Shown: positions 17,813-33,445 of the stretch, piece after piece
Numbering within the stretch: the first letter of the stretch is position 1
Layout of the letters: each line of letters opens with the position of its first letter
From: Cupriavidus necator A5-1
GTDB taxonomy: Bacteria > Pseudomonadota > Gammaproteobacteria > Burkholderiales > Burkholderiaceae
Reading direction: 5' to 3'
Assembly (NCBI RefSeq): GCF_000744095.1
Contig: NZ_JQLI01000001.1
Coordinates: forward strand, 2,728,001-2,792,000
DNA length: 64,000 nt
The notes under the pieces: model-generated
The model's database searches: none
What the model saw: only the letters and a program-made list of their open reading frames with translations
Told to the model about the DNA's origin: nothing
Translations under genes and position numbers: made by a program

Positions 17813-17825
17813 GATCGCTCGGCTC

Positions 17826-19025
17826 TTAGAGTTGGAACAGCGTCTTGGCGATGATTCCGCGCTGGACCTCGCTGGTGCCGCCATAGATGGTCGAGGCACG
17901 GCGGAAGAACATCTCGGCGGCGAACCCCCGTCCGGGCCATTCCGTCGGCAACGCCGCACCCGCGGCTTCCTCTTGCTGGCTGGGGTAGGCCACTGCGCCG
18001 TAGTCGCCCAGCGACTCCACCACGAAGGCGCTCATCCGCTGTTGCAGCTCGGTGCCCCGCACCTTGAGGATGGAGCCCATGGCATGCGCTGACGGGCTGT
18101 GGTCCTGCTCCAGCGTGGCGACGCGCTGGACCATCATGGCAATGGCCGCCGCTTCCGCTTCAAAGCGCGCCAGTCGCAGCGCGAACTCGTGGTGCTCGGC
18201 CAGTGTGCGCATGCCGCTGCGCTGGCTGACCGCCAGTTGCCGCAGCTGCGCCAGGTAGCGCCGCAGCGTCGGCAGGTCGGCCGCCGAGGCGTGCTCGTTA
18301 TTGAGCAAGAACTTGGTGATCTTCCAGCCTTCGCCTTCCTCGCCAATACGATTGGCGACCGGTACGCGCACGCTGTCGAAGAAGGTCTCGTTGAGGTGGT
18401 GGCGGTCGTCGATGCTGCGGATCGGGCGCACCGTGATGCCGGGTGTCTTCATGTCCACCAGCAGGAAGGTGATGCCCGCCTGCTTCTTCACCTCGGTATT
18501 GGTCCGCACCAGCAGAAAGATCCAGTCGGCGCGATGCGCGTAGCTGGTCCAGATTTTCTGGCCGTTGACGATGTAGTCGTCGCCGTCGCGCTCGGCGCTG
18601 GTGCGTAGTGAGGCCAGGTCCGAGCCGGAGCCCGGTTCGGAGAATCCCTGGCACCAGGTGCGGTCGGCATTGAAGATCGGCGGCAGGTGCTCGGCCTTTT
18701 GTGCCGGCGTGGCGAATTCGTTCAGCACCGGCCCGATCAGCTTCTGTGCCGCGCCGTCCTGCGACGGGGCCCCGGCGGCCATGCATTCCTCGTCGAACGC
18801 CAGCCGCTGCAGCACCGACCAGCCGGTACCGCCGTGCTCCCTGGCCCAGTAGGGTGCGCCCCAGCCACGCTGGTTCAGGATGCGTTGCCAGCGGACCAGG
18901 TCCGCGTTGGGTGAGCGGGTGCCGCTGCGCACGGGCGTTACCAGGTCGGCGGGCAGGTGATCGCGCAGGAATTCACGCACCTCCTGCCGGAACGACTCGA
19001 GCCCCGGATCGGGTTGAAAGTCCAT
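17826..19025 (-). CDS. Acyl-CoA dehydrogenase, probable large subunit
   Basis: A 399-residue partner of the protein encoded 13 bp downstream. FAD/substrate motifs are clear: QGFSEPGSGSDLASLRT and YIVNGQKIWTSYAHRAD. A typical insert contains VRTNTEVKKQAGITFLLVDM. At the end, IYGGTSEVQRGIIAKTLF has Gly where many family members have the catalytic Glu. This is common in the FadE/PimC-like large subunits, where another acidic residue serves. The pairing points to a heteromeric dehydrogenase for a large or branched acyl-CoA. It is 90 bp downstream of the SCP2-type thiolase gene. Confidence 0.9.
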   Translation of the reverse strand: MDFQPDPGLESFRQEVREFLRDHLPADLVTPVRSGTRSPNADLVRWQRILNQRGWGAPYWAREHGGTGWSVLQRLAFDEECMAAGAPSQDGAAQKLIGPVLNEFATPAQKAEHLPPIFNADRTWCQGFSEPGSGSDLASLRTSAERDGDDYIVNGQKIWTSYAHRADWIFLLVRTNTEVKKQAGITFLLVDMKTPGITVRPIRSIDDRHHLNETFFDSVRVPVANRIGEEGEGWKITKFLLNNEHASAADLPTLRRYLAQLRQLAVSQRSGMRTLAEHHEFALRLARFEAEAAAIAMMVQRVATLEQDHSPSAHAMGSILKVRGTELQQRMSAFVVESLGDYGAVAYPSQQEEAAGAALPTEWPGRGFAAEMFFRRASTIYGGTSEVQRGIIAKTLFQL

Positions 19026-19115
19026 TTCGCTTCCTTCTCATCTGAAATCCATCGCGACGGCGCATCTCTGCCCGCGCCGTCGCGCGCCGCGCGCCTGCGC
19101 GGCTCGTTGCCTGAC

Positions 19116-20294
19116 TCAAACGTGCAGGATGGTGGCGACGGCGGCTGCGCCGTCCACGCCAACCTGGCCGCCGCCGTTCTCGGCGAGCGCGAGCGTGGCG
19201 TTCTCGCGCTGGCGCGGGCCGGCCTCGCCACGCAGCTGCTGGGCCAGCTCGACCAGTTGTGCGACCCCGGTGGCGCCGATCGGATGGCCCTTGCTCAGCA
19301 GGCCGCCGCTGGGATTGACGGAGATCTTGCCGTTCAGGCCGGTGGCGCCGCTGCGCAACATGCCGAGACCTTCGCCAGGCCGGCACAGGCCGAGGCTTTC
19401 GTAGTACATCAGTTCCGACGGCGCGGAAGCGTCGTGCACTTCGGCGACATGGATGTCCAGCGGATCGACGCCGGCCTGTTCGTACACGCCATACGAGGCC
19501 CGGATGGCGCAATGCGCGAGGCTGCCGTCGGGCGTGCCCGAAACCAGCACCGAGCCGCCCACCCAGACCGGGCGCGCGGCGGTCATGCGCTTGAGGAATT
19601 CCGGCGAGCACAGCACCACGGCGCAGGCACCGTCGCCGATCGACGAGCACATCTGCAGGGTCAGCGGGTCGCTGATCATGCGGCTGGCCAGCACTTCTTC
19701 CACCGTGGTTTCGGTCCGGAACTGGGCGTACGGGTTCAGCGAGGCGGCCTTGCGGCTCTTGACCACGATCTGCGCGATGTCCGCCGCCGTGGCGCCGGTT
19801 TCGGCCATGTACTTGCGGGTCTTGGCGGCGTAGATGTCCATGAAGATCGAGCCGCTGCCCGAGCCCACGTGGGCCTGCTGCGGTTCCTCGAGATCGACCG
19901 CCCTGGCCAGCGCGCCAAAGGAAACGCGCTTGTCCTCATGTGTCATCCGTTCGGCGCCCACCACCAGCGCCACCTGCGCCTGGCCACTGCGCACCGCATT
20001 CCAGGCGAGGTGGAAGGCGGTGCTGCCGGTCGCGCAGGCGTTTTCCACGTTGAATACCGGCTTGCCCATCAGGCCGGTGAAACGCAGCGCCGCCTGCCCG
20101 CGGATCATTTCCTGGCCGGTGATGAGGCCAGCCACGGCGTTGCCGAAATACACCTGGTCGACGTCCTGCGGCTGCAGGCCGGCATCGTCCAGCGCGGCCT
20201 TGACCGCGGTCTCCGCCAGCATCCGTACGGTCTGGTCAGGGAACTTGCCGAAGCGGGTCATGCCGACGCCGACGATTGCACAAGTCTTGTTCAA
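19116..20294 (-). CDS. SCP2-type thiolase (acetyl-CoA acetyltransferase family)
   Basis: Thiolase of the sterol-carrier/lipid-transfer subgroup, 392 residues, which cleaves 3-ketoacyl-CoA or acts as an aldolase component. The nucleophilic Cys lies in NVENACATGSTAFH. The His/HDA region is VAEVHDASAPSELM, and SKGHPIGATGVAQLVELAQQ carries the second catalytic motif. The start is a TTG at 20294 (MNKTCAIVGVG), supported by GGAG seven bases upstream and the lack of an ATG. It sits between the porin and the large dehydrogenase subunit. A second SCP2-type thiolase lies at 22558-23760. Confidence 0.9.
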   Translation of the reverse strand: MNKTCAIVGVGMTRFGKFPDQTVRMLAETAVKAALDDAGLQPQDVDQVYFGNAVAGLITGQEMIRGQAALRFTGLMGKPVFNVENACATGSTAFHLAWNAVRSGQAQVALVVGAERMTHEDKRVSFGALARAVDLEEPQQAHVGSGSGSIFMDIYAAKTRKYMAETGATAADIAQIVVKSRKAASLNPYAQFRTETTVEEVLASRMISDPLTLQMCSSIGDGACAVVLCSPEFLKRMTAARPVWVGGSVLVSGTPDGSLAHCAIRASYGVYEQAGVDPLDIHVAEVHDASAPSELMYYESLGLCRPGEGLGMLRSGATGLNGKISVNPSGGLLSKGHPIGATGVAQLVELAQQLRGEAGPRQRENATLALAENGGGQVGVDGAAAVATILHV

Positions 20295-20324
20295 TTTACT
20301 TCTCCGCTAATGGATTCGGGTTCG

Positions 20325-21473
20325 TCAGAAGCTGTGCCGCATGCCCAGGGTCACCGCAAACTGGCTGTTCTTGCCAGCGCCGAGGTAGTAGCCGGTGCCC
20401 AGGCCGCCCACCGAGGTGTCGAAGTTCAGGCCGGCGTTCTTCGAGTAAGCGGTGGAGAGATACAGGCTCGTGCGCTTGCTGAAGAAGTACTTGGTCGTGA
20501 ACATCACCTGCCAGGGGTTCTTGATGTTGCCGAGCAAGGTGCCGTTGACCGGGTTGGCCACCTGCCGCACGTCGTCGTAGTAGTAGGCCAGCGTGGATTC
20601 GAGCTGAGGCGTGAAGGAGTAGGTGCCGCCGACCCAGTAGTAGTTGTCGCGCAGGATCTCGACATCCGCCGGGTTCTGGCTGCGGCCCCAGCGGTAGCCG
20701 GCCACCAGGCGTAAATCACCGGCGGCATACTTGCCCGCGACGGCGGCACGCCTGGCCTTGCCCGGGGGACCGCCGGCGGTGGTGGGGGCGTCGACCTCGT
20801 CGTAGGCCACGCCGATGCCGAAGGGCCCGGACGTGTAGCTGGCCGCGCCGCCGTAGGCAGCGCCCGAGCGGAAGCTGCCCGGCACCTCGCCCGCGGTGGC
20901 GGGCGAAGCTGTATCGACCCCGAACGACCAGTGTGCGGCGAGCTCGACCGGGCCAAACTTTGCGCCGTACTTGACCACGTTGTCTTCGCGGTAGTAGCGC
21001 CCCAGGTACGCCACCACCGGCTCGTACTGCGGCTGGTAGAAGCCAGCCTGGAAGTTGGCCAGCACATCGAAGATCGAGGTGTACTGGCGTCCGAAGGTCA
21101 GCTTGCCGTAGGGGCTGTCAAAGCCAACGAATGCCTGGCGCCCGAACAGCCGGCCGCTGTTGGCCATCTTGCCGTCATCCGAACTGAAGCCGCTTTCCAG
21201 CACGAACACGCCCTTGAGCCCGTTGCCCAGGTCCTCAACGCCGCGCAGGCCCCAGCGCGAGCCGCCAATGCCACCCGTCAGCATGGCGAAGCGGTTCTCC
21301 GCCGGCCCCGGCGGCACCGTGGGACCGGTGCGCGACTGGTTGTTGACGTACTCGAGGTTGGTGTCGATCAGGCCATACAGCGTCACGGACTGCGCGTTGG
21401 CGGTACCTGCCAGCGCGGCGCTGGCAGCGACCAGCGCAAGGCGGGCAGACCGGAATCGTTTGACCAGCTTCAT
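20325..21473 (-). CDS. Gram-negative (Burkholderia-type) porin
   Basis: Outer-membrane diffusion channel of 382 residues with a Sec signal peptide ending ANA at about residue 25. The mature start is QSVTLYGLIDTNLEYVNN, the hallmark of beta-proteobacterial 16-strand porins. The sequence has regular alternating strands and ends in RHSF, whose terminal Phe is the BAM recognition signal. The ATG at 21473 follows GGAGACATCC. Its place inside the acyl-CoA gene run suggests uptake of the same organic acid across the outer membrane, complementing the Bug receptors. Confidence 0.92.
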   Translation of the reverse strand: MKLVKRFRSARLALVAASAALAGTANAQSVTLYGLIDTNLEYVNNQSRTGPTVPPGPAENRFAMLTGGIGGSRWGLRGVEDLGNGLKGVFVLESGFSSDDGKMANSGRLFGRQAFVGFDSPYGKLTFGRQYTSIFDVLANFQAGFYQPQYEPVVAYLGRYYREDNVVKYGAKFGPVELAAHWSFGVDTASPATAGEVPGSFRSGAAYGGAASYTSGPFGIGVAYDEVDAPTTAGGPPGKARRAAVAGKYAAGDLRLVAGYRWGRSQNPADVEILRDNYYWVGGTYSFTPQLESTLAYYYDDVRQVANPVNGTLLGNIKNPWQVMFTTKYFFSKRTSLYLSTAYSKNAGLNFDTSVGGLGTGYYLGAGKNSQFAVTLGMRHSF

Positions 21474-21600
21474 GGATGTCTCCGTTTCTATTTTTTGATG
21501 GATCGTGGCGGGCGGACGCTTGCGTGCGGCCCCGGATCGCGGCAAGACTGGAAATTGCCGCAGCGCGGGTTGCCCGTGCTGCGGCGGGCGGCTTAAAGGA

Positions 21601-22512
21601 TCAGACCGGATCCCACGGGAACACGTCGCGCGACAGTTCGAGCGGGTAAAACGAACCCTTCAGCATGGGGATGGCGCGCTCGATGCACGACTGCACGGTC
21701 CAGCCTTCGCTGGCATGCGCGGTGCGGATCGGGCGCGGCTGCGAGAACAGGTAGATCTCATTGTTGCGCACGCCGAACACCTGGCCGGTGACCTGGCGGC
21801 CCTGGTCGCTCAGCAGCGCCAGCGTGAACGGCGCGATCTTGCCGGCCTCCAGCGTCATGTTGATCTTCATGCGCTCGGCGGCTTCCGGGGTGTTGGTCGG
21901 GATGCTGCCGACCATGCGCGTGAAGGCGAACGGCGCGATGCAGTTCGAGCGCACGTTGAACTTCTGCATGTCCACCGCGATGGACTTGGACAGGCCGACG
22001 ATGCCCAGCTTGGCGGCGGCGTAGTTGGCCTGGCCGAAGTTGCCGATCAGCCCGGAGGTCGAGGTCATGTGCACGAAGGCCCCGCCTTCCTGCGCCTTGA
22101 AATGCGGCGCCACGGCACGCGACACGTTCCAGCTGCCCTTCAGGTGCACGCGCACCACCGCGTCGAATTCTTCCTCGCTCATCTTGTGGAAGATGACGTC
22201 GCGCAGGTTGCCGGCGTTGTTGACCACGCCGTCGATGCGCCCGTACAGGTCCAGTGCCTGCTGGGCGATCTTCTGCGCCGAACCCCACTCGGCCACGCTG
22301 TCGGTATTGGCGCTGGCGTCGCCGCCGGCCGCCTTGATCAGGTCGACGGTTTCCTGGGCGGGGCCGGCGCTGCCGCCGCTTCCGTCCATATTGACGCCGA
22401 GATCGTTGACGATCACGCGCGCGCCCTGGCGTGCCGCTTCCAGTGCAATGCCGCGGCCCACGCCGGCACCGGCGCCGGTGACGATGATGACTTTCCCTTC
22501 AAGCAGACTCAT
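21601..22512 (-). CDS. Short-chain dehydrogenase, probable 3-hydroxyacyl-CoA dehydrogenase
   Basis: NAD(P)-dependent SDR of 303 residues. The Gly-rich cofactor loop is VTGAGAGVGRGIALEAARQG, then NNAGNLRD, and the catalytic Ser/Tyr/Lys are in TSTSGLIGNFGQANYAAAKL. It is about 50 residues longer than a minimal SDR and resembles the dehydrogenase part of peroxisomal multifunctional enzyme 2 (HSD17B4-like). That fits oxidation of the hydroxyacyl-CoA made by the MaoC hydratase of the same run. The ATG at 22512 is preceded by AAGGAGAG. Confidence 0.88.
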   Translation of the reverse strand: MSLLEGKVIIVTGAGAGVGRGIALEAARQGARVIVNDLGVNMDGSGGSAGPAQETVDLIKAAGGDASANTDSVAEWGSAQKIAQQALDLYGRIDGVVNNAGNLRDVIFHKMSEEEFDAVVRVHLKGSWNVSRAVAPHFKAQEGGAFVHMTSTSGLIGNFGQANYAAAKLGIVGLSKSIAVDMQKFNVRSNCIAPFAFTRMVGSIPTNTPEAAERMKINMTLEAGKIAPFTLALLSDQGRQVTGQVFGVRNNEIYLFSQPRPIRTAHASEGWTVQSCIERAIPMLKGSFYPLELSRDVFPWDPV

Positions 22513-22557
22513 GGTTGAAACTCTCCTTCGCAACGAATGAAATTGGACTGGCCGGCG

Positions 22558-23760
22558 TCAGTGGCTCAGGCCCAGGATGCTCACGGCCGCGATGCCCTGG
22601 TAGGGCACGCCGCCAAGGTTGTGCGTGAGGCCGATGGTGGGACTGGCAAGCTGGCGCTCGCCGGCACGGCCCTGCAGCTGGTTGTAGATCTCGTAGGCCA
22701 TGCGCAGGCCGGAAGCCGCGATCGGATGGCCGAAGCACTTCAGGCCGCCATCGACCTGGCATGGCACGCCATGGCCGTCGCGGTCGTAGAAGCCGTCGAG
22801 CACGTCGTGCACGGCGCGGCCGGGCTCCGAGATAAACAGGTCTTCCATGGTCACCAGCTCGGTGATCGAGAAGCAGTCGTGCACCTCGATCAGCGACAGC
22901 TGCTGGCGCGGGTCGGTGATGCCGGCCTCGGCGTAGGCGCGCTGGGTGGCCATGCGGGTATTGCGCACGTGGCTGCCGTCCCAGGCGTTGGTGGTCGATT
23001 CGATGCCCGAGCTGACGCTGAGCTGGATCGCCTTGATCGTGACCATGTCTTTGCGGCCGAGTGCGCGGGCGATCTCCGGCGTGGTGACGATGGCCGCCGC
23101 GGCGCCGTCGCTGACGCCGCAGCAGTCGTACAGGCCAAGCGGGTCGGCGATCATCGGCGCGGCCAGGATCTGCTCCATCGACACCGGCTTGCGCAGGTGC
23201 GCCTTGGGGCTGAGCGCGCCGTTCTGGTGGCTCTTCCAGGACACTCGCGCCAGCGCGCGCTTGAGGTCTTCCTTCGAGATGCCGTGGCGCGTGCGATAGC
23301 CGTCGGCCAGCTGCGCGAAGCCTGCGGGCGCCGATCCCAGCGGCAGCCACAGGTCGTTCATGGTGCCCTTGTACGAAAACGGCAGGCCGCCGTAGCCGGT
23401 GTCCTTGAGCTTCTCGGCGCCGATCGCCAGCGCGATATCGACCGCGCCCGACGCCACTGCATAGGCCGCGCCGCGCAGCGCCTCGGTGCCAGTGGCGCAC
23501 ATGTTCTCGGTGCGGCTGACCGGGATGCCGTCGAGCCGCAGCGCCAGTGAAGCGGGGATGGCGGAATTGCCGATGTTGACCGCGTCCAGGCACGAGCCGA
23601 ACCACGCCGCGCCGATCTCCTTGCGCCCGATGCCGGCATCGACCAGTGCTTCGTCGAATGCCTCGGCCAGCAATTCATGGGTGCCCACGTCCCAGCGCTC
23701 GCCAAAGCGCGAGCAGCCCATGCCGATGATGGCGACCTTGTCCTTGATACCGTTTGCCAT
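22558..23760 (-). CDS. SCP2-type thiolase/acetyl-CoA acetyltransferase
   Basis: A 400-residue lipid-transfer-type thiolase. The active-site Cys is in TENMCATGTEALRGAAYAV, EVHDCFSITELVTMEDL is the central motif, and GGLKCFGHPIAASGLRMAYE the last. It begins MANGIKDKVAIIGMG at 23760, 14 bp after the HMG-CoA-synthase-like/DUF35 protein gene. DUF35 proteins in steroid side-chain degradation (ChsH2) pair with a thiolase-like protein (Ltp2) to form an aldolase. By analogy this thiolase and its neighbour may form one C-C bond-cleaving complex, which is inference. Confidence 0.9.
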   Translation of the reverse strand: MANGIKDKVAIIGMGCSRFGERWDVGTHELLAEAFDEALVDAGIGRKEIGAAWFGSCLDAVNIGNSAIPASLALRLDGIPVSRTENMCATGTEALRGAAYAVASGAVDIALAIGAEKLKDTGYGGLPFSYKGTMNDLWLPLGSAPAGFAQLADGYRTRHGISKEDLKRALARVSWKSHQNGALSPKAHLRKPVSMEQILAAPMIADPLGLYDCCGVSDGAAAAIVTTPEIARALGRKDMVTIKAIQLSVSSGIESTTNAWDGSHVRNTRMATQRAYAEAGITDPRQQLSLIEVHDCFSITELVTMEDLFISEPGRAVHDVLDGFYDRDGHGVPCQVDGGLKCFGHPIAASGLRMAYEIYNQLQGRAGERQLASPTIGLTHNLGGVPYQGIAAVSILGLSH

Positions 23761-23774
23761 GACTGTGAGTTCCC

Positions 23775-25235
23775 TTATGCCGCCACCGGCGTGGCTTTCC
23801 AGAAGTAGCGCGGATAGTTGCGCGCGCGGTCGACGTCCTTGATGCGGAACACCATCTGCAGCGGCGTGCCGACCCCCAGGCCCTGCTGGCCGACGTCCAC
23901 GATCTCCATCAGCACGCGTGCGTCGTTGTCGAACTGCACGAAGCCAACGTAGAGCGGCGGCGACGGGTGGTAGGACAGCCAGTCCGCCGTGCTGGTCAGG
24001 ACCCTGGCGGGCACGTCGTACAGGTGAGTGCGCCGGAATCCCGACGCCGGCGCGTTGCAGCCCGCCTTGACGCAGTAGGAAAGCTGGGGGAACTGCACGG
24101 TGCCGCACTGGCAGCACGTGCCCGCGACGAAGCTGGCCAGCTGGTGCGAAGAGCGGTACTGGTCGGTGAAGGCGGTCTTGAGCGGCTTCTCGGCGCGCAT
24201 GCCCCATTCGAGCTCGATGGCATTGCCGTACGACAGCATGCGTAGGTAGGCATCGTGGACCTGGCCTTCGGCAACGGCCCTGGCCACGCCGCGGCGCGGC
24301 CGGAAGCCGGTGATGGCTTCGGTCGTGCGCAGCACCAGCACGTCGCAGCCCTGGCCGAAGCCGGCGACCACGATCAGCTGGCCGGGCTGCGCGCGCTCCA
24401 GCACGTCGGCCAGCATCAGGCAGCCATGCGCCGTGCCGGCATAGCCGCAGTGCTCGTCCAGGTGGGCGGCGACCGCTTCGGGCGAGAAGCCGCAGCCCTT
24501 GGCCACCATCGCGGCGGCGCCCTTCAGCGGCGATGCCAGGATGAAATGGCTGACGTCCCTGGGCTCCACGTTCGCCTGTGCCAGCGCCTGCCTGACGGTT
24601 TCGGGCACGACCTTGCCGTAGCCCTCGTCGCGGATCCAGCGCTCTTCCCAGTAGTAGTCGTACTTGCCGTCCGCGGCGCGGAAGTGGTCCACGAACAGGT
24701 TGGCGCAGCTGGCACTGCCGACCAGGCTGGCGACGATGTCCTCGCTGCCCAGCGTGAACGCGGCCGCGCCGGCGCCATAGGTTAGTTCCTGCGTGCTGGC
24801 GGGCTTGCCGGCAGGGTGGTCGCTGGCGATGAACAGTGCCTCGCCGTCCGCGGCGCGCAATTGCGCCAGCAGTCCGGCCACGCCGGCGCGCTGCGACTGG
24901 CCGACATCCAGCGTGCGCACATTCGCCGGCAGGTCAAGCGCGCCTGCCACGATGCTGGCGCTCTGCAGGTCGCTGAAAGCCGGCCGCGTGGTGGCCAGCG
25001 CGAGCGCGGTGATGTCCTGGCGCGGGCGGCTGTCCAGCGCATCGCGCGCCGCTTCCACGGCCATGGTCACGCTGTCCTCGTCCCAGCTGCAGAAGGCGCG
25101 ATGGCCTTTTGCCATGGCCATATTGGCCGGCGCCATCCAGCGGTGTGCGGCGGCAATGGCGGCGCGCTGCATACGCAGGCGCGGGACATAGCCCCCGTAT
25201 CCGGTGATTCCGTACGGTGTCATCGTTTTGCTCAT
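23775..25235 (-). CDS. HMG-CoA-synthase-like domain fused to DUF35 (zinc ribbon/OB fold)
   Basis: A two-part 486-residue protein. Residues 1 to about 330 follow the HMG-CoA synthase/KAS III thiolase fold (ITGYGGYVPRLRM, the CGYAGTAHGCLMLADVLE helix, VAGFGQGCDVLVL). Residues about 365-486 are a DUF35 module: a zinc ribbon (Cys374, Cys377, Cys388, Cys393) and an OB fold. The usual acyl-accepting Cys is not seen; the matching segment reads VGQSQRAGVAGLL around residues 111-123. It may therefore not condense acyl groups itself. Directly upstream of an SCP2 thiolase, it could be the acyl-binding half of an aldolase-like complex, as in ChsH2/Ltp2. Confidence 0.85.
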   Translation of the reverse strand: MSKTMTPYGITGYGGYVPRLRMQRAAIAAAHRWMAPANMAMAKGHRAFCSWDEDSVTMAVEAARDALDSRPRQDITALALATTRPAFSDLQSASIVAGALDLPANVRTLDVGQSQRAGVAGLLAQLRAADGEALFIASDHPAGKPASTQELTYGAGAAAFTLGSEDIVASLVGSASCANLFVDHFRAADGKYDYYWEERWIRDEGYGKVVPETVRQALAQANVEPRDVSHFILASPLKGAAAMVAKGCGFSPEAVAAHLDEHCGYAGTAHGCLMLADVLERAQPGQLIVVAGFGQGCDVLVLRTTEAITGFRPRRGVARAVAEGQVHDAYLRMLSYGNAIELEWGMRAEKPLKTAFTDQYRSSHQLASFVAGTCCQCGTVQFPQLSYCVKAGCNAPASGFRRTHLYDVPARVLTSTADWLSYHPSPPLYVGFVQFDNDARVLMEIVDVGQQGLGVGTPLQMVFRIKDVDRARNYPRYFWKATPVAA

Positions 25236-25284
25236 GTTGTCGGTGCCGTCACGACGGCTGATGGTGGTTCGTGGTTGCCTGGGA

Positions 25285-26079
25285 TCAGGGTCGGCTTGCA
25301 GCCGGCAGTTCGAGCGTGTCGCCGCGCATGACCGCCTGGTTCAGCAGGGCCATCGGGCTCGCGTCAGCCGGCCAGGGAGCGGCCGGGCCCTCTCTCCCGC
25401 GCGCCTGCGACGCATGACTGGTCATGACGGCGAAGGCACGATGACTCAGGGTTGCGACGCGGGGCTGGCCGGGGCCGTCCAGCATGCAGGCCATGACGGC
25501 GGGGTCCGGTCCGCATGCCTGCATCGGAACCGGCCCGATGCCCGCTGCCAGCGCATCCGGCAAGCCGTGCATGCCGGCGGGGCGCACGGCGGCCTGGGCT
25601 GGCGCGGTGGCATCGGCGGTATCCGGGCAAGCAGCAACCAGGCATCCCCGCAGGCTTGCGTCGGCGAGCAGGGGCGTAATGACCTCCTGCAAGCCGGCCG
25701 CGACAATGGCGACCCGAGCGCCGGTGCTGCGCGCACAGCGGGCGAGCGCCGCGCTCGAGGTGTCCGGGTCTACCATCACCACGACGGCGTCGCAACGCAG
25801 CACCCCATACCAGGCCATGGCGAACTGCGGGCACGCGGGCATGGCCAGCAGGACCCGGTCGCCGCGCCGCACTTCAAAATGCTGCTGGAGATAGCCCGCG
25901 AGGCACAGGGCGGCACGGTGCAGTTCACCATAGCCGACGCGCTGGCCGCGATACACGATCGCGTATTTGTCGTGATCGTGCAGCGCGCGCGCTTCGAGGT
26001 GGCTGAACAGGTGGCTGTCCGGCGACCCGGGTGCGGCAGCAGTGCCGGAGGCGTCGTGGGGGCGGCAGAGGGTGGCCAT
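25285..26079 (-). CDS. Truncated AMP-binding (acyl-CoA synthetase-like) protein
   Basis: A 264-residue frame matches only the N-terminal part of adenylate-forming ligases: KYAIVYRGQRVGYGELHRAA, RRGDRVLLAMPACPQFAMAW, VVMVDPDTSS. The phosphate-binding A3 loop (normally SGTTGxPKG) is replaced by LDGPGQPRVATLSHRAF. The chain stops about 60 residues later, so the whole catalytic core and C-terminal lid are absent. It is probably a decaying gene, although its frame is intact and its place in the operon (34 bp after a Bug gene) is regular. A non-catalytic role is possible. Confidence 0.7.
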   Translation of the reverse strand: MATLCRPHDASGTAAAPGSPDSHLFSHLEARALHDHDKYAIVYRGQRVGYGELHRAALCLAGYLQQHFEVRRGDRVLLAMPACPQFAMAWYGVLRCDAVVVMVDPDTSSAALARCARSTGARVAIVAAGLQEVITPLLADASLRGCLVAACPDTADATAPAQAAVRPAGMHGLPDALAAGIGPVPMQACGPDPAVMACMLDGPGQPRVATLSHRAFAVMTSHASQARGREGPAAPWPADASPMALLNQAVMRGDTLELPAASRP

Positions 26080-26113
26080 ATCGCTTGCCAGTGGGAAGGG
26101 TTCGGAGCTGCGC

Positions 26114-27091
26114 TCACTCCGGCTGGATGCCGGCGATGTTGATGAGCCGCTTCCACATCTTCTGGTCCTCGACGATGATCTTGCTGAGCTCGGGACCGGT
26201 GGCGGGGAATGCCAGGCTGCCGCGCTCGGCGTAGTGGGCCCGGGCCTCCGGCGAATTGACGAATTCAAGGCTCAGCCGCGCGAGCTTGTCGATGATTGGC
26301 TGCGGCGTGCCAGCCGGGGCGAACAGGCCGGTCCAGCTGGTGACCTGGACCCCGGGCACGCCGGCTTCGGCCAGGGTGGGCACATCGGGCAGCAGGGCCA
26401 TGCGGCTTGGGCTCATTACCGCGAGGGCACGCAGCTTGCGGCCCTGGACCTGCGGCACCGCTGAGGCGACGTCGGTGAGGCCGTAGTCCATGGTGCCGCC
26501 GATCAGGTCGGTGATCATGTTGGCCATGCCCTTGTACGGCACGTTGACGGCCTTGATGCCGGCGGCCTCGTTGAAGGCTGCCACGGCAACCTGGGAGGGC
26601 GCGCTGGCGGTGCCGTAGTTCAGCTTGCCGGGCCTGGCGCGCGCGCCGGCCACCAGCTCGGACACGCTGTGGTACGGCGAGGTGGCCGGCACCACGATGG
26701 CGACCGGCAGCATCGACAAGCGTGCGATCGGCGTGAAGTCCTTGCGCGGATCGTAGGGCAGGTGCTTGAACAGATTGGGGTTGGCGGCCATCGTGCCGGA
26801 GGTCGCCAGCAGCAGCGTGTAGCCATCCGGCGCTGCCTTGGCCACGTACTCGCCGGCCATCATCATGTTGGCGCCGGGCCGGTTGTCCACCACGAAGCTC
26901 TGTCCCAGCTTCTCGCCCAGGTACTTCGCCAGCAGGCGCGTGTAGCTGTCGGCACCGGTGCCGGCGCTCGACACTGAAACCATCCGCACCATCCGCTCGG
27001 GGTAGTTCTGTGCGGCGGCCGGCCAGGCCATGGCCAGCAGCGTGCCAAATACCGCCATGCGGCGCCTGGCGGGAGCGGTGAAAGTGGTCAT
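26114..27091 (-). CDS. Bug/TctC-family periplasmic substrate-binding protein
   Basis: A 325-residue receptor with a signal peptide (to AWPAAA, about residue 28) and full Bug signatures: NYPERMVRMVS, VDNRPGANMMMAGEYVAKAA, PDGYTLLLA, FTPIARL, VPYKGMANMITDL and LPDVPTLAEAG. The start is the ATG at 27091 (MTTFTAPARRR). It is the first gene of the 15-gene minus-strand run and a close paralogue of the Bug at 12207-13199, sharing the end IAGIQPE. Two similar receptors in one operon suggest two related ligands or a duplication. The promoter region lies in 27092-27433, between this gene and the transposase-fused regulator. Confidence 0.92.
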   Translation of the reverse strand: MTTFTAPARRRMAVFGTLLAMAWPAAAQNYPERMVRMVSVSSAGTGADSYTRLLAKYLGEKLGQSFVVDNRPGANMMMAGEYVAKAAPDGYTLLLATSGTMAANPNLFKHLPYDPRKDFTPIARLSMLPVAIVVPATSPYHSVSELVAGARARPGKLNYGTASAPSQVAVAAFNEAAGIKAVNVPYKGMANMITDLIGGTMDYGLTDVASAVPQVQGRKLRALAVMSPSRMALLPDVPTLAEAGVPGVQVTSWTGLFAPAGTPQPIIDKLARLSLEFVNSPEARAHYAERGSLAFPATGPELSKIIVEDQKMWKRLINIAGIQPE

Positions 27092-27311
27092 GCAGGTCTC
27101 CTGTCTTCGTTGCTTGATGGTGATGCGTGGGGCAGCGGTTCGCGCCGCGCCGATGCCGGCTGCGGTTCCTTGCAGGAACGGCGCGTGCACCGGTATCGCC
27201 TTGCTTTCGTCTTGCTGAATGATTGACCTGCGAGGGGGGGAGGGCACTCCCCGGCCTGGGGGGGCGGTGCCAGAGGAGCGGCTGGCGGGGTGCTCGGGTG
27301 TTTCGCATGAA

Positions 27312-27433: not shown

Positions 27434-30400
27434 TCAGGGGCGCCGGGCGGCCGGCTGTCCGGAGGCGAACTCGCGCAGGCGTGCGGCGGCGCCGCCTCGG
27501 CCACTCACGCCGAGCTTGGCGTAGATGTTCTTCAGGTGCCACTTCACCGTTTCCGGCGACAGGTTCAGTACCAAGGCGATTTTCTTGTTCGGCATCGCCT
27601 GCGCGGCCAGGTTCAGGACCTCGCGCTCGCGCTCGCTGAGCGCGTCGGCGGAAGCGGCTGGCATACCCTGGCGGGCCTCGCTCTGGTACTGCGTGGCCGT
27701 GGCCGCGGCGGCGGACAGCAAGCGCTGCACGTAGAACTTCAGCACGGGATCGAGCGTGTGGGTCTCGAGCAGCGACCCCAGCGCGCGCGGCAAGTCCGCG
27801 GACACATCGAGCAGGGTGCGCACCAGACCCAGCCGATGCCCGATCTGCAGCCCCTGACGGAAGTGCTGCAGCGCCGCCTGAGCATTCCCGAGCTGCTGCT
27901 GCGCGAGCGCCAGTTGCAGCCACAGCGCGGCCAGCCGGACCTGCTGGCCCCGTTCCTGGCACGCTTCGATATAGCCCGCGATACGGGGCACGGCGCCAGC
28001 GAAATCGTGGACGTAGAGACCCATCGCAATGCGGGCGCGCTCCGCGCCATAGGCGATCCTCAGCGCCTTACCGGCCCTGGAGCCGGCATGGGCGCTGGCC
28101 AGTGCATCAATACGCTGCAGTACGCTGCCCGCTTGCTCCATCTCGCCCGCGTCGAGGTGGCGCCGCATGCGTAATTCCAGTGCAGTGACCCGAAGCCGGT
28201 CCAGCCCGAAGCGGTCGGCGTAGCGGGCGAGCCGGGCGAGGCAGGCGTCTGCCTCGGCGCGCCGGCCAGTCAGCCACTGCGACTCCGACAGCACCAGCAG
28301 TGCCCTCAGCACGGTGTCGGGCAGCGAGACCCGTTCCAGAACGTCGATGCGTGGCTCCACCAGCCGGAGCGCGCCCTCCAGGTCGTTTTGCTCGTACAGC
28401 GTATCCGCCAGCAGCCCGGTGGCCATGCACGACACGCCGACATAGGCCGGGCCGCACTGGTCGGCTTCGTGCAGTACCTCGCGCACGGTCCTCTCGGCCT
28501 GCGCGATGTGGCCCTCCAGGGCCAGGCTCATGGCGCTGATGCAGCGGCCAAGCAGGCGGCTGCGCGGCGCCGCGGGGCGCTCGCCGGTCTCGTCCAGGAC
28601 CGCTCGCGCGCGGTCGTACTGGCCCCGAGAGACGTAGGCCCACGACAGCACGTTGCTGCGGCCAGTCCAGGCAAAGTCGGTCGCGTCCGGGGGGATGGCG
28701 CTGACGGCGTCGAGCAGCGCATAGACCGTATCGGTATCGTCCTGTTGCAACGCCAGGCCGCATCGCAGCAGGGAGATGGCGTAGCGCTGCCCGGCGTCGA
28801 GCCGGTCCTGCTGCGAGGCCATCCGGGCCAGGCTTTCCTTGAGCGCGTCGAACTTCCTGGTGTAGAGCTGCAGGTAGGCGGACGCAACCAGCAGGCCGAA
28901 GCGCGACTGGACCTGTTCAGCCGGCAGCCGGCGCAGCAGGCTGGCCAGTTGGCCGAGTTCCCCGCCCGACAACAGCTCGTAGGCGCAGTGTTCCACCATG
29001 CCGGCTGCCGCCCCGGCGTCGCCGGCCAGCACCGCGTGGTGCACGGCATCGTCGATATGGCCGCGCTCGCCGAACCAGTTCCAGGCATCGGCATGGAGTG
29101 CGCGCTGCGCGGCTTCCGGCCAGCCTGCCACGCGGGCCAGCAATACCTCGCGCAGCAGCGGGTGCAGGCGATACCAGGTCTCGCGGTCATGGCTGCCGAT
29201 CTGCGTGAGGAAGAGATTGTCGTGCTCCAGCTGCGCCAGGCGGGCTGCCATCTGCGGCGCGTCTTGCGGCCTGCCCAGCACGCTCGCGCACAGCGAGGCG
29301 CAGATGCGGTTGCAGGCGGCCATGCGGGTCAGCATGTCCAGGTCGTCAGGTTCCAGCCGCACCAGCACTTCCTGTTCGAAATAGCTGGCGAAAGTGCGCG
29401 CATCGCGCACCTGCACCAGCGGGTAGGTGCCGCCCTCCCGCGTCCGCATGTCGACCGCGAACAATTGCAGCCCGGCTACCCAGCCGTCGGTCAGTGCATG
29501 CAGGGCGGCGGCGTCGCGCTTGTCGATGACGCCCAGGCGGTCGCACAGGAACCGCTCCGATTCGTCGGCGGTGAAGCGCAGGTCGCGCATGTCGATCTCG
29601 GTCAGCCTCCCTTGCGAGCGCAGCCGTTCCAGCGATAGCGGCAGCGCGCTGCGCGAGCTGAGCGCCAGGTGCACATGCCCGGGAGCGTAGTCCAGCAGCC
29701 ACTGCAGCGCCTGGTAGATGCGGGGGTCGTCAATGTGATGCAGGTCGTCGAGCATCACCACGATCTCGCGCCGGCGTGCGGCCAGCCCCTGCACCAGGCT
29801 GATCACCCAGTGCTCGATGGCGGCATCGTCGCTGTCGCGGCCGATCAGCAGGGCAGCTTCTCGCACGATGGCGGGATCGACCTCGCCGATGCTTGCCAAC
29901 AGGCAGTCAAAGAAGCGGGTGGGCTCGTTGTCTTCCGGCGCGAGCGTGAGCCAGGTGACGTCATAGTCGAGTGACAGCAGCGACCTGCGCCAGGCCAGCA
30001 GGGTGCTGGTCTTGCCGCTGCCGGCCTGCCCCTGCACCACCATGCAGCGCTGGCGCCGCGCATCCTGCAGGCGTGCCATCAGCGCTTCGCGCGGAATCAG
30101 GTTGCGCGCGGTGCGCGGGGGCATGACCTTGGTGCTGGCCACCGACTCCACCGCGCTGCCCGCCGGCAAGTCGGCGGCGGCCAGCGGCGGCGGCGCGACG
30201 GTGCTTCCCTCTGTTCTGGAGTCGGGTACTTGTGTTGCATCGTCGATGGAACTTAACACTTGCGTGGTCCCGTGCGCGGGCTTGCGTTCCAAGGTGGCCA
30301 CCCAGGTGAAAGGCTTGCCGTCGGCGCGCGGCGGGTGGGCGTCGATCGCAGCGAGCATGGCCGGGACGCCGGGTCGATGCGGCCCCGCTGCGGTGGCGCG

Positions 30401-31252
30401 GAAAAAGCGCTGCAGCATGCGCAGCCATGCGGCCGGACTCGGCGCGAAGTGCGCACGGATGCGTGGATGCCGTGCCAGCCATTTCTGCACGGCGGCCTGG
30501 TGATGGGTCGGATAGTTGTCCGCGACCAGGTGGAGGGTCCGGCCCGGCGGTGCGCTGCGCTCGATCCTGCGCAGAAACGCAAGCCATTCGGTGCCGCGCT
30601 GCTGCGCGTCCGGCAGGGCCTGTACGCTCCCCTGCATTTCCCGGAGTGTAGCCAGCAGCCGCGTGACGCCGGGCTGCCTGCCGTCTTGCGCCGCCACGCT
30701 ATGGTCTGCCGCGCCGGAAACGGGCGCGGCCCCGGCATCGACACTTAGCACCAGCGCATGTTCTGCGGGGGACATATACAGGCCCATGATCTCCGGCTGC
30801 TGACCGCCCAAACCGAGATCGGCCGCTGCGCCGTGCGCTTGCGCGGCAGGCAGCGTGACGCCGGCCGCGCGCAGGTGCCGGGAGATGCTGGCCGCGCTCA
30901 CCCCAAGCTGCTCGGCCAGTTTGCGCGTGCTCCACGGGGCGGGCGAATCCGGCCGGCTTTGCGCGGTCAATGCCGCCAGCCGCTCGATATCCACTTTCAC
31001 CGGGGGCGCACCGCGCGGCAGGGTGGCCTCGATGCCGGCAAGCCGCAGTTGCGCATACCGCTCGCGCCAGCGCGACACCTGCACACGGCCTACGCCGAGT
31101 TGCTCGGCGATGTCCTTGTTCTGCAAGCCGTCGGCGGCGAGCAGCACCATGCGCGCACGCTGCGCAAGCCGTTCGCCGTGGCCGGCTTGCAGCAGTTGCT
31201 CCAGCTCGGCCCGCTCCGCGGCCGTGAGCACAATGTCAGGGGCAATTCGCAT
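27434..31252 (-). CDS. Fusion of an IS630-type transposase with a MalT-like LuxR (STAND) regulator
   Basis: A 1272-residue protein. Residues 1-135 carry two helix-turn-helix units as in IS630 transposases (RARMVLLAADGLQNKDIAEQ; STRKLAEQLGVSAASISRHL). Residues 165-325 follow the transposase DDE core: LVLSVDAGAAP (Asp172), LHLVADNYPTHHQAAVQKWL (Asp245), FAPSPAAWLRMLQRFF, and the terminal DGKPFTWVA. The third acidic residue is Gln281, so cutting activity should be lost. Residues about 375-1272 form an ATP-dependent LuxR regulator: Walker A GQAGSGKTS (408-416), Walker B VVMLDDLHH, a long helical-repeat sensor, and a C-terminal HTH (LSEREREVLNLAA, SPETVKWHLKNIYAKLGV). The ATG at 31252 has GGAG upstream; a longer frame adds 67 unlikely residues. 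It lies between the two catabolic gene sets and probably regulates one or both. Confidence 0.88.
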   Translation of the reverse strand: MRIAPDIVLTAAERAELEQLLQAGHGERLAQRARMVLLAADGLQNKDIAEQLGVGRVQVSRWRERYAQLRLAGIEATLPRGAPPVKVDIERLAALTAQSRPDSPAPWSTRKLAEQLGVSAASISRHLRAAGVTLPAAQAHGAAADLGLGGQQPEIMGLYMSPAEHALVLSVDAGAAPVSGAADHSVAAQDGRQPGVTRLLATLREMQGSVQALPDAQQRGTEWLAFLRRIERSAPPGRTLHLVADNYPTHHQAAVQKWLARHPRIRAHFAPSPAAWLRMLQRFFRATAAGPHRPGVPAMLAAIDAHPPRADGKPFTWVATLERKPAHGTTQVLSSIDDATQVPDSRTEGSTVAPPPLAAADLPAGSAVESVASTKVMPPRTARNLIPREALMARLQDARRQRCMVVQGQAGSGKTSTLLAWRRSLLSLDYDVTWLTLAPEDNEPTRFFDCLLASIGEVDPAIVREAALLIGRDSDDAAIEHWVISLVQGLAARRREIVVMLDDLHHIDDPRIYQALQWLLDYAPGHVHLALSSRSALPLSLERLRSQGRLTEIDMRDLRFTADESERFLCDRLGVIDKRDAAALHALTDGWVAGLQLFAVDMRTREGGTYPLVQVRDARTFASYFEQEVLVRLEPDDLDMLTRMAACNRICASLCASVLGRPQDAPQMAARLAQLEHDNLFLTQIGSHDRETWYRLHPLLREVLLARVAGWPEAAQRALHADAWNWFGERGHIDDAVHHAVLAGDAGAAAGMVEHCAYELLSGGELGQLASLLRRLPAEQVQSRFGLLVASAYLQLYTRKFDALKESLARMASQQDRLDAGQRYAISLLRCGLALQQDDTDTVYALLDAVSAIPPDATDFAWTGRSNVLSWAYVSRGQYDRARAVLDETGERPAAPRSRLLGRCISAMSLALEGHIAQAERTVREVLHEADQCGPAYVGVSCMATGLLADTLYEQNDLEGALRLVEPRIDVLERVSLPDTVLRALLVLSESQWLTGRRAEADACLARLARYADRFGLDRLRVTALELRMRRHLDAGEMEQAGSVLQRIDALASAHAGSRAGKALRIAYGAERARIAMGLYVHDFAGAVPRIAGYIEACQERGQQVRLAALWLQLALAQQQLGNAQAALQHFRQGLQIGHRLGLVRTLLDVSADLPRALGSLLETHTLDPVLKFYVQRLLSAAAATATQYQSEARQGMPAASADALSEREREVLNLAAQAMPNKKIALVLNLSPETVKWHLKNIYAKLGVSGRGGAAARLREFASGQPAARRP

Positions 31253-31499
31253 TTGTGCACTCCACTTGGCTTGCCGCAGGTCCCGGATTTCGGGGGCAGT
31301 AGAACATAAATTCCGTTTTGCGTGCAACTCTCCGTGACCAGCATGCGTGTGGAATTGCCGGGAAAACCTGGGTTTCGCGCCGCGCGGCCACTTCGCCCAC
31401 CCCGAAATGAGTAGTGCCGGGAGCGTGACGGGCGAATAGATTGATCCTGCCAAGACATCAGGACGGATGTCCGTTCCAATCTATTACCTGGAGAGACAG

Positions 31500-32270
31500 A
31501 TGAGTGTTTCGCAAGCCCTGGTCGGCTCGGTCGGCTGGCTGACCCTGAATCGCCCCGACAAGCTCAACAGCCTGACCCGCGCCATGGTCGAGGGCATGAC
31601 CATCGAGCTGAAGGCGTGGCGCGACGATGCCGCCGTGCGCGTGGTGGTGGTGACCGGCACCGGGCGCGCCTTCTGCGCCGGCGCGGACCTGAAGCAGGGC
31701 GCCGCAGCGCCGCTCCCCGGTGAAAGGGACTCGCTCGACATCATCGTCGAGTTCTTCGACACGCTGCGTTCGTTCCCCAAGCCCGTGATCGCCGCGGTCA
31801 ATGGCCTGGCACTGGCCGGCGGCCTGGAAGTGGTGCTGGCCTGCGATATCGTGCTGGCCGCCGAAAGCGCCCGCCTGGGCGACGCGCACTCGAACTACGG
31901 CGTCTTCCCTGGCGGTGGCGGCGCCGCCATCCTGCCGCGCAAGGTGCCCGACAACGTGGCCCGCTACCTGCTGTTCACCGGCGACTCACTGAGCGCGGCG
32001 GAGATGAAGGGCTATGGGCTGGTCAATGAAGTCATCGCCGATGCGGAATTGAGCGATCGCGCCCAGGCCCTGGGCGACAAGCTCGCCGGCAAGAGCCCGC
32101 TGGTGCTGGCGCGCATGAAGCGCGTGGTGTCTCAGGCAACCGACAAGACCACCGCCGACGCGCTGCGCCATGAGGTGCTGGAACTGCGCGACCACAAACG
32201 CTCGTACGACATCCAGGAAGGCCTGCGTGCCTTCGCTGAGAAGCGCGAGCCCCAGTTCAAGGGCTATTGA
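31500..32270 (+). CDS. Enoyl-CoA hydratase/isomerase (crotonase) family protein
   Basis: Crotonase-fold protein of 256 residues. It has the oxyanion-hole motifs GRAFCAGADLKQG and VNGLALAGGLEVVLACDIV. In the catalytic stretch AHSNYGVFPGGGGAAILPRK the position of the first catalytic Glu (usually in PE.xLG) is Ser, so simple hydration is uncertain. An isomerase, hydrolase or aldol-type reaction is possible. The ATG at 31500 follows GGAGAG five bases upstream; an ATG at 31467 would add 11 residues without a ribosome site. It is the first gene of a two-gene plus-strand unit divergent from the transposase-fused regulator. Confidence 0.9.
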   Translation: MSVSQALVGSVGWLTLNRPDKLNSLTRAMVEGMTIELKAWRDDAAVRVVVVTGTGRAFCAGADLKQGAAAPLPGERDSLDIIVEFFDTLRSFPKPVIAAVNGLALAGGLEVVLACDIVLAAESARLGDAHSNYGVFPGGGGAAILPRKVPDNVARYLLFTGDSLSAAEMKGYGLVNEVIADAELSDRAQALGDKLAGKSPLVLARMKRVVSQATDKTTADALRHEVLELRDHKRSYDIQEGLRAFAEKREPQFKGY

Positions 32271-32302
32271 GCCCGTCCCCGACATCCGCAACGAGCACCG
32301 AT

Positions 32303-33445
32303 ATGACCTACCAACTTCCCACCGAAGACCAGACCCTGGCGGTCGAGAGCTTCCGCAAGTTCCTGCAGGCCGAGATCCGGCCCGTGGTCAAGGAGTACCG
32401 CGACCGCTTCATCCCCAAGGAGATCATGCGCGAACTGACGCAGAAGATCGCGCAGTTCGGCTTGCCCGGCTGCACGCTTCCCGTCGAGCATGGCGGCATG
32501 GGCTTGTCGTTCACCACCCACTGCATGCTGTTCGAGGAGCTGGTGGCCTGCTCCTGCGATATCGCGCTGACGGTGATGATCAACAACGGCATCGCGCGCC
32601 GCCTGCTGTCGGCGAAGCCCGAGATCCGCGACCGCTACCTGCCAGGCATCCTGGCCGGCAAGCTGTTCGGCTGCGCGGGCATCAGCGAGCCGGACGTCGG
32701 CTCCAACGTGGCCGAGATCAAGACCCGCGCGGTGCGCGACGGCGACCATTTCATCATCAACGGCGAGAAGACCTGGATCACCAACGGTTTTTACTCTGAC
32801 TTCCTGATCTGCACCGTGCGCGGCGAGAACGGCCTGTCGCACATCCTGATCGATCGCGAAGCGCACGGCTACGAGGCCCGCAATATCCAGAAGATCGGGC
32901 TGAACTCGCAATCGACCGCGCAGATCTTCATCACCGATGCGCGCGTGCCGGCCAGCAACCTGATCGATGACGAAGGCGCGGGCCTGAAGAACACCATGAA
33001 GATGTTCGAGCACGCCCGCGGCCACGTCGGCATGCTGTCGGTCGGCATCATGCGGGCAGCGCTGGAAGAGTCGATTGCCTATGCCAAGGAGCGCAAGCAG
33101 TTCGGCAAGGTCATCGCCAGCCACCAGCTGATTGCGGCCAAGATCGCCGACATGGCGATGATGCTCGACGCGGCTCGCCTGATGTGCATGCGGGTCTTCG
33201 GCATGATGGACGCCGGCGTGCGTTGCGACCTCGAAGCATCCATGGCCAAGGCCTTCGCCACCGAAGCCGCGGTCCAGGTGTGCCGGGATGCGGTCCAGCT
33301 GCATGGCGGCAACGGCATCACCAAGGAGTTCAACGTCGAGCGCTATCTGCGTGAAGCCATCATCATCCCGATTCCCGACGGCACCACGGAAATCCAGCGG
33401 CTGTTCATCTCGCGCAGGCTGACAGGGATTTCGGCGTTTGTCTGA
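32303..33445 (+). CDS. Acyl-CoA dehydrogenase
   Basis: A 380-residue flavoenzyme with AGISEPDVGSNVAEIKTRAV, FIINGEKTWITNGF, KERKQFGKVIASHQLIAAKI and QLHGGNGITKEFNVERYLRE. The C-terminal motif is IPDGTTEIQRL, with Asp where the catalytic Glu usually sits. This may mean a different base or altered activity. The ATG at 32303 lies 32 bp after the crotonase gene, so the pair is probably one operon. It resembles the acyl-CoA dehydrogenase at 44328-45491, which keeps Glu. Confidence 0.92.
   Translation: MTYQLPTEDQTLAVESFRKFLQAEIRPVVKEYRDRFIPKEIMRELTQKIAQFGLPGCTLPVEHGGMGLSFTTHCMLFEELVACSCDIALTVMINNGIARRLLSAKPEIRDRYLPGILAGKLFGCAGISEPDVGSNVAEIKTRAVRDGDHFIINGEKTWITNGFYSDFLICTVRGENGLSHILIDREAHGYEARNIQKIGLNSQSTAQIFITDARVPASNLIDDEGAGLKNTMKMFEHARGHVGMLSVGIMRAALEESIAYAKERKQFGKVIASHQLIAAKIADMAMMLDAARLMCMRVFGMMDAGVRCDLEASMAKAFATEAAVQVCRDAVQLHGGNGITKEFNVERYLREAIIIPIPDGTTEIQRLFISRRLTGISAFV

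Follow-up and report, generated by a model that had tools for sequence, protein, structure and literature searches.

A decayed IS630-type transposase as a probable second DNA-binding module of a MalT-like regulator in Cupriavidus necator

The 64,000-nucleotide stretch of contig NZ_JQLI01000001.1 from Cupriavidus necator A5-1 analysed here (the window, in whose positions all coordinates are given) contains an uninterrupted gene of 1272 codons on the minus strand (27434..31252). Its N-terminal part derives from a transposase of the insertion sequence (IS) family IS630, and a linker joins this part to a MalT-like regulator, with a STAND nucleoside triphosphatase (NTPase), a tetratricopeptide repeat (TPR) region, and a C-terminal LuxR-type helix-turn-helix (HTH). 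We consider it probable, from comparisons of sequences, that the dead transposase has been turned into an additional DNA-binding module for a MalT-type regulator of acyl-CoA catabolism which, in the group of fusions that includes the window copy (clade 1), may control its own promoter through an inherited IS end. An initial annotation of the window had proposed that a transposase was domesticated by fusion to a LuxR/STAND regulator, and this proposal holds: the fusion is found in many species, the catalytic residues are lost, and the HTHs are under selection.

The history that best explains these features would begin with an IS630 element that inserted, in matching frame, ahead of a MalT-like (LAL-type) regulator gene in Burkholderiaceae. 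The stop codon of the transposase, which in a living relative of the element lies within the right inverted repeat, would then have been lost, fusing the two frames. Catalysis would have disappeared with the change of the third acidic residue from E to Q and the destruction of the first motif, but selection would have preserved the two HTHs as a second DNA-binding module. The outcome would be an NTPase regulator gated by a signal and carrying a DNA-binding domain at each end. In clade 1, the N-terminal module would probably still recognise the inherited left end of the IS at its own promoter (autoregulation), the LuxR domain would act on the flanking acyl-CoA catabolic operons, and the NTPase and TPR parts would gate the protein in response to an inducing ligand, as they do in MalT.

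The author of the initial annotation was aware of no described regulator of this build, and no description of a transposase-MalT/LuxR fusion was found in the titles and abstract openings of the open-licence papers that full-text searches listed. TldR proteins derive from TnpB. They are RNA-guided, transposon-related proteins turned transcription factors in bacteria and phages (PMC13418256) and differ from the fused protein in being RNA-guided, in having a non-DDE origin, and in having no signal-sensing NTPase as fusion partner. In animals and plants, transcription factors derived from transposases are known (PMC10027918, on transposon-derived transcription factors in metazoans, and PMC13306707). 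Excerpts of a review on how mobile elements have been co-opted in prokaryotes give Xre-type regulators and antitoxins, and not DDE transposases, as sources of bacterial transcription factors (PMC8987985), and those of PMC8195603 treat transposase ATPases as relatives of STAND NTPases, and not the transposase-MalT/LuxR architecture. The fused gene looks like a bacterial counterpart of the regulators that arose from transposons in animals and plants. It offers a bacterial case with a readable history, comprising living IS relatives about 50% identical, unfused regulators, IS-end-like traces, catalytic loss, and a sublineage that shed the DDE domain, and it makes testable whether a transposase plus its own end can become a regulator plus its operator in one event.

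One frame, two sets of domains

The gene starts with an ATG at 31252, its stop codon ends at 27434, and no internal stops interrupt it; the single frame had been recognised in the initial annotation, where no strand was given. At the N-terminus, the NCBIfam profile of the IS630 family, NF033545, matches residues 31-280 with 117.5 bits (cut-off 100), and the Pfam profile DDE_3 matches residues 194-285 with 30.7 bits (cut-off 28.6). The first HTH (residues 28-76; 31025..31171, minus strand) is of the IS630 type and is supported by profiles, by alignment, and by the ratio of replacement to silent substitution rates (dN/dS), with HTH_23 and HTH_29 above their cut-offs and HTH_32 slightly under its own. 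The second HTH (residues 102-132; 30857..30949, minus strand) was placed by alignment, and its ELGVSAASISRH-type helix is kept across the fusions. Profile and alignment locate a decayed DDE domain at about residues 150-322 (30287..30805, minus strand), where Asp172, Asp245, and Gln281 (codon 30410-30412) stand as originally read. The KPFTW motif, noticed at the same time, is the counterpart in the alignment of the KPFIW of the IS630 transposase. A fast-evolving linker (residues 323-370; 30143..30286, minus strand) leads from the transposase part to the regulator.

The MalT-like STAND NTPase spans residues 371-700 (29153..30142, minus strand), as defined by profile and by alignment to MalT in the PDB (chain 8bob, residues 376-792 of the fused protein, E 4.7e-32), and its GQAGSGKT is presumably the Walker A motif, judging by eye. 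The MalT-like TPR region (residues 830-1159; 27776..28765, minus strand) and the C-terminal LuxR/GerE HTH (residues 1204-1255; 27488..27643, minus strand) are both recognised by Pfam-type profiles, TPR_MalT and GerE, above their cut-offs. PRK04841 covers the MalT-like region at residues 374-890 with 253.6 bits, which lies under the MalT equivalog cut-off of 537. The protein therefore shares with MalT/LAL LuxR regulators the STAND NTPase with Walker A, the MalT TPR, and the C-terminal LuxR HTH, but not the N-terminal position of the NTPase free of any further DNA-binding domain: whereas the unfused relatives begin shortly before the NTPase, the fused protein has about 370 residues of transposase and linker ahead of it.

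The composition of both halves agrees with what had been described at the outset, including the DDE fold of the first one: profiles, and weakly the fold comparison, identify that half as a mariner/IS630 transposase. The identity claim is carried by the sequence profiles, and fold comparison lends it weak support. The predicted structure of residues 1-344, built from 13 sequences (mean predicted local distance difference test score, pLDDT, 74; predicted template modelling score, pTM, 0.50), gave no Foldseek match in the PDB at E <= 0.001. The first and second ranks were the Mos1 transposase (E 5.5e-3 and 9.3e-3, with low TM-scores), and the third was the DNA-binding domain of SETMAR on its transposon end (7s03, E 0.081).

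That the two halves are made separately, or that their join is an assembly artefact, strikes us as very unlikely. A possible internal start would be the GTG at residue 371 of the window copy, preceded by GGAG. Among the 18 distinct fusion rows collected, six have a GTG or TTG with a Shine-Dalgarno-like match in the linker stretch, this GTG included, and Met377, an ATG without such a match, is common to five of the six clade-1 rows. However, no ATG with a Shine-Dalgarno-like match was found in the linker stretch in any of the 18, the rows L119 and L120 have no internal start candidates, and the remaining 13 rows have L or A at position 377. As for an artefact, the fusion recurs in independent assemblies, complete plasmid records among them. 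The initial annotation had named two separate proteins as an outcome that would speak against it; the scan of internal starts goes as far as making an internal product unlikely as the main one.

Distribution and origin of the fusion

Full-length homologues with 50-78% identity are present in other genomes, so the fusion is not due to chance. It was found in at least 13 genomes of Cupriavidus, Caballeronia, and Paraburkholderia, a count that includes the genome of the window and merges G281 with C. yeoncheonensis and G208 with C. necator SHC 2-3 (shared locus or contig). The 18 rows come from these 13 genomes, 16 with the DDE domain and two without it. The search in other Burkholderiales that had been suggested at the start thus returned several species with the same join, and not a single genome. 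Full fusions occur in Burkholderiaceae bacterium 16, Cupriavidus lacunae, C. numazuensis, C. pinatubonensis, C. yeoncheonensis, the genus member G243, Caballeronia concitans, and Paraburkholderia sacchari, as well as on plasmids of C. necator N-1 (pBB1) and Cupriavidus sp. KK10 (p1); DDE-less ones occur in C. necator SHC 2-3 and the genus member G231. The 9.7-Mb genome of the window itself holds a second full fusion (L002, 54% identity), an unfused relative (L003) about 16 kb from it (G000:C8), and IS630 transposases of 377 residues with about 50% identity.

Searches at three levels delimit this distribution. Among 60 genomes of the genus, with up to 11 candidates scored in each, nine carry a fusion that has the DDE domain and runs in a single frame (G000, G243, G281, G303, G304, G305, G309, G311, and G313), two a DDE-less one (G208 and G231), and one a broken fusion (G312). 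The N-termini of G309 and of one of the two G305 fusions were established in a separate comparison, and what was flagged as a stop in G303 and G311 is the natural end of the gene. At the family level, with at most two candidates scored per genome, 33 of 299 genomes have a relative at E <= 1e-100, and at least seven of those 33 have the fusion; within the 399 genomes of an order-level draw, only the window's own has a relative at that threshold among the top two candidates per genome. Relatives were taken as the best 80 of 248. Plasmid records with a match numbered 529, and two of the eight examined are fusions.

In the tree of C-terminal parts (94 rows), built by a quick method and with several long branches outside the fusion clade, the 18 fusions and L022, which meets a contig edge, form one clade with a Shimodaira-Hasegawa-like approximate likelihood-ratio test (SH-aLRT) value of 100, and this 19-row clade is nested within the unfused regulators. 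In the midpoint-rooted tree of N-terminal parts (25 rows), one branch (100/99) splits the 18 fusions from seven chosen IS630 transposases. A single origin of the fusion, inside a family of unfused regulators, is thus supported statistically. Since the DDE-less pair (L119 and L120) is sister to L012 in the C-terminal tree, the DDE domain was probably lost in a single event. The Caballeronia/Paraburkholderia pair is placed inside a fusion clade whose other members are all from Cupriavidus, a position suggestive of transfer from one genus to another.

Two side observations concern the relatives. In several genomes, pairs of regulator relatives, fused or unfused, lie some 10-25 kb apart on one contig (L002/L003, L061/L076, and L025/L030). 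The genus member G310 has 62 matches, copies and fragments, to an IS630 element related to the fusion transposase, which we read as a recent burst, and no fusion among its 11 candidates scored.

Loss of catalysis and selection on the modules

At the three catalytic places, seven IS630 transposases carry DEKSQ, DN, and VERF. The third position is E in all seven and Q (Q281 in the window) in all 16 DDE-bearing fusions. DEKSQ is lost in the 16, as the remark of the initial annotation on altered residues around the first acid had anticipated for the window. The second position is D (D245) in 16 of 16, followed by an equally invariant N246, and the first is D in only four (D172 in the window). The statement that the first two acids remain was therefore right for Asp245, whereas Asp172 is a poor remnant. 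No fusion has the intact D-D-E/D triad in DEKSQ context that defines IS630 transposases, and the best reading of these alignments is a catalytically dead transposase part. Both HTHs are retained, and the whole DDE domain is deleted, in L119 and L120 (= L019). The HTHs are there joined directly to the regulator, as a natural minimal version of the protein.

Selection was estimated by simple Nei-Gojobori counting in nine chosen pairs, of which L016/L002 was set aside as uninformative (dS about 0.01). Because the 18 rows were picked for a long frame, their intact frames are not evidence of function. In the comparison of the window copy with L009, dN/dS comes to 0.15 in the HTHs, 0.33 in the DDE domain, and 0.56 in the linker; in the regulator part it amounts to 0.16 (NTPase), 0.18 (TPR), and 0.26 (LuxR HTH). 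The HTH ratio is 0.04-0.35 in eight of the nine pairs (all the informative ones), lower than that of the NTPase in five of the eight, lower than or equal to that of the TPR in seven, and lower than that of the LuxR HTH in two. The DDE ratio is 0.19-0.49 in informative pairs, L119/L120 contributing merely 21 residual codons, and the linker ratio is 0.56-1.13 in five pairs, with no replacements in L015/L021. The HTHs are thus under purifying selection comparable to that on the NTPase and TPR parts. In an alignment of 11 fusions with two IS630 transposases, 49 of the 64 invariant N-terminal columns fall in residues 1-132. The features that mark a transposase-derived transcription factor, namely purifying selection on the DNA-binding part, lost catalytic residues, and fusion in several species, are found together here.

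These ratios bear on the idea of a passenger, in which a working MalT-like regulator would carry a remnant of the transposase as its N-terminal half and gain nothing from it. A passenger would fit a DDE domain whose evolution outpaces that of the HTHs and which one sublineage has lost, the excess of unfused relatives over fused ones, and the broken copies (L058 and G312), but the HTH ratios near those of the NTPase and TPR, together with HTHs that outlast the DDE deletion, make this improbable. A comparably low likelihood goes to a role of the N-terminal half in protein-protein assembly (transposases multimerise) in place of DNA binding: even though the DDE domain is constrained in most members, with the invariant D245 and N246, the invariant columns lie mostly in the HTH part, which is also what the DDE-less members retain.

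In ISY100, an IS630 relative, the transposase uses a two-HTH domain at its N-terminus to bind the ends of the element (PMC2170065), and SETMAR, a fusion of the Hsmar1 transposase with a SET domain in primates, has kept the end-binding DNA-binding domain and lost end-specific cleavage (PMC9062482). By likeness to both, the N-terminal module should bind DNA. SETMAR resembles the fused gene as a transposase of the Tc1/mariner/IS630 superfamily joined to a host protein, and differs from it in being eukaryotic, in having a SET methyltransferase as partner and no NTPase switch, and in binding about 5000 dispersed ends. IS630 transposases (that of the L004-L007 element, about 50% identical, and that of ISY100) share the two HTHs and the DDE domain with the fused protein, in which, unlike in them, the triad is lost, intact inverted repeats were not found, and a regulator is attached.

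As another possibility, the fused protein might restrain resident IS630 elements, the dead transposase competing for their inverted repeats. Its HTH region does resemble the IS counterpart, and in four of the 12 fusion-bearing genomes of the genus (G000, G303, G305 with a truncated one, and G311) there is also an IS with 90% identity or more to the L005 element. However, eight of the 12 have no such IS, three (G243, G281, and G231) lack a separate relative at E <= 1e-50, and the fused gene is situated in catabolic clusters. IS control was rejected as the main function on account of these eight genomes and the catabolic setting, and we consider it decidedly unlikely.

Traces of the IS630 element and genomic setting

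The related IS630 element L004-L007 has inverted repeats at its ends, adjoining CTAG, and its left end lies 85 bp before the assigned GTG start of the transposase (80 and 72 bp in the annotated L124 and L127). In L005, the last ten residues of the transposase and its stop fall inside the right inverted repeat, which adjoins the CTAG target, an arrangement that could have made read-through fusion to downstream genes easy. The fused gene lacks paired terminal inverted repeats with target duplication: intact ends, which the initial annotation had proposed to look for, were not found in the window at up to three mismatches to the L005 end core, and only diverged traces are present, at -85 and at the junction.

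The upstream trace is a conserved 42-bp block (31296..31337, minus strand) shared by the six clade-1 loci, with a part resembling the IS630 left inverted repeat (31307-31337), and it can be read as a sigma70-like promoter. Its start precedes the ATG by 85 bp in the window, L009, and L014, by 90 bp in L118, by 92 bp in L121, and by 113 bp in L010, and the mean pairwise identity over these loci is 0.72 and 0.79 in its two 20-bp bins and 0.24-0.41 in its surroundings. A matrix was built from eight ends of four IS630 elements (six were examined; L123 gave no clear repeats and L126 was omitted). Over 330 bp on both strands, the best match of this matrix is the block in five of the six loci, and in L009 the block ranks second. 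Its score was reached by none of 3000 column permutations in fixed register and by one of 1000 with free offset, which supports statistically its resemblance to an IS end. The block is kept at L014, where the divergent hydratase gene described below is absent, and thus travels with the fused gene. The other trace is a weak one of the right inverted repeat at the fusion junction (30229..30255, plus strand; 20 of 27 consensus positions). It is the best match in the window to the end consensus, shares its reading frame with the IS tail (LSS), and has a local alignment score equalled by 11 of 2000 shuffles; among ten other fusions scanned for it, only L009 has a short (9-base) match near the junction. 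Autoregulation via the inherited left end would be the simplest reading for clade 1, and the HTHs of clade 2 would need another role.

Several observations weigh against this account of the module and its operator. The LuxR HTH is more constrained than the N-terminal HTHs in six of eight pairs. The constraint on the DDE domain, together with the invariant D245, is unexplained by a pure HTH role, and the domain evidently retains some role in most members, as far as substitution patterns tell. The initial view that DNA binding was kept and cutting lost consequently stands for the missing catalytic residues and the selected HTHs, and is too simple in keeping DNA binding only, yet one sublineage did shed the DDE domain. 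Regarding the junction, the last 60 bases of the IS, used as query, find their best alignment at another place, and the gene's antisense strand yields a score of 21, the right-end trace one of 22. The upstream block also reads as a sigma70-like promoter, and its sole other match in the genome (3 mismatches) directly precedes a tRNA and is promoter-like as well, so that its conservation need not reflect binding of the regulator. In global alignment, the whole IS left end is clearly similar only to the upstream region of the window (2 of 500 shuffles), the values for the other five clade-1 loci being 34 to 137 of 500. Lastly, the block was not seen in the five clade-2 loci scored upstream; since the HTHs are kept there without it, they must do more in clade 2 than autoregulate at the IS end.

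A regulon search with the block returned one exact place in the window's own genome and the place upstream of the tRNA, and no regulon. Elsewhere in 17 fusion loci, IS-end-like operators were scattered, several of them in coding sequence, and none was common to the clades. Somewhat less likely than not, in our view, is a further-reaching reading: the fusions would form a family of bacterial transcription factors built from a DDE transposase, signal-gated STAND regulators that carry a DNA-binding module at each end. The N-terminal module would still read a fossil transposon end in the promoter of its own gene and could loop or couple this site with catabolic promoters bound by the LuxR domain. 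It is possible that such a protein loops two sites together, and it might bridge two promoters, as the initial annotation had envisaged.

Four of the five clade-1 loci aligned share a second conserved element, CACTACTC-N4/5-GGGGTGG, in the interval from the fused gene to the divergent hydratase gene; the fifth, L118, keeps GGGGTGG only. The window copy is at 31397-31403 (CCACCCC on the plus strand), within 31253-31499. The element faintly recalls the MalT box consensus and could be a candidate site for the LuxR domain. GGGGTGG occurs upstream of unfused relatives in 16 of 84 cases, compared with 32 of 840 control stretches. It was not used as a MalT-box-like motif, being absent in 12 of the 14 closest and confounded by the difference between coding and non-coding composition.

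The fused gene is flanked by two catabolic gene sets, and the regulon would, judging from these neighbours, be acyl-CoA catabolism. The divergent enoyl-CoA hydratase and acyl-CoA dehydrogenase genes (31467..33445, plus strand) are kept at L009, L010, L118, and L121, and not at L014. Past them come a LysR regulator, a TauD-type dioxygenase, a TctC protein, a class II aldolase, a CoA ligase, and a CoA transferase. Downstream of the fused gene and on its strand, the second set (16649..27247, minus strand) has the order TctC receptor, partial AMP-binding enzyme, HMG-CoA synthase-like protein, thiolase, short-chain dehydrogenase/reductase, porin, thiolase, and two acyl-CoA dehydrogenases. The short-chain dehydrogenase/reductase has matches of 79-98% identity near other fusions, in frames taken without a gene caller. 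The AMP-binding gene (25285-26268) matches positions 2-129 only of a profile of 384, its first third, and looks truncated, unless it is a short paralogue.

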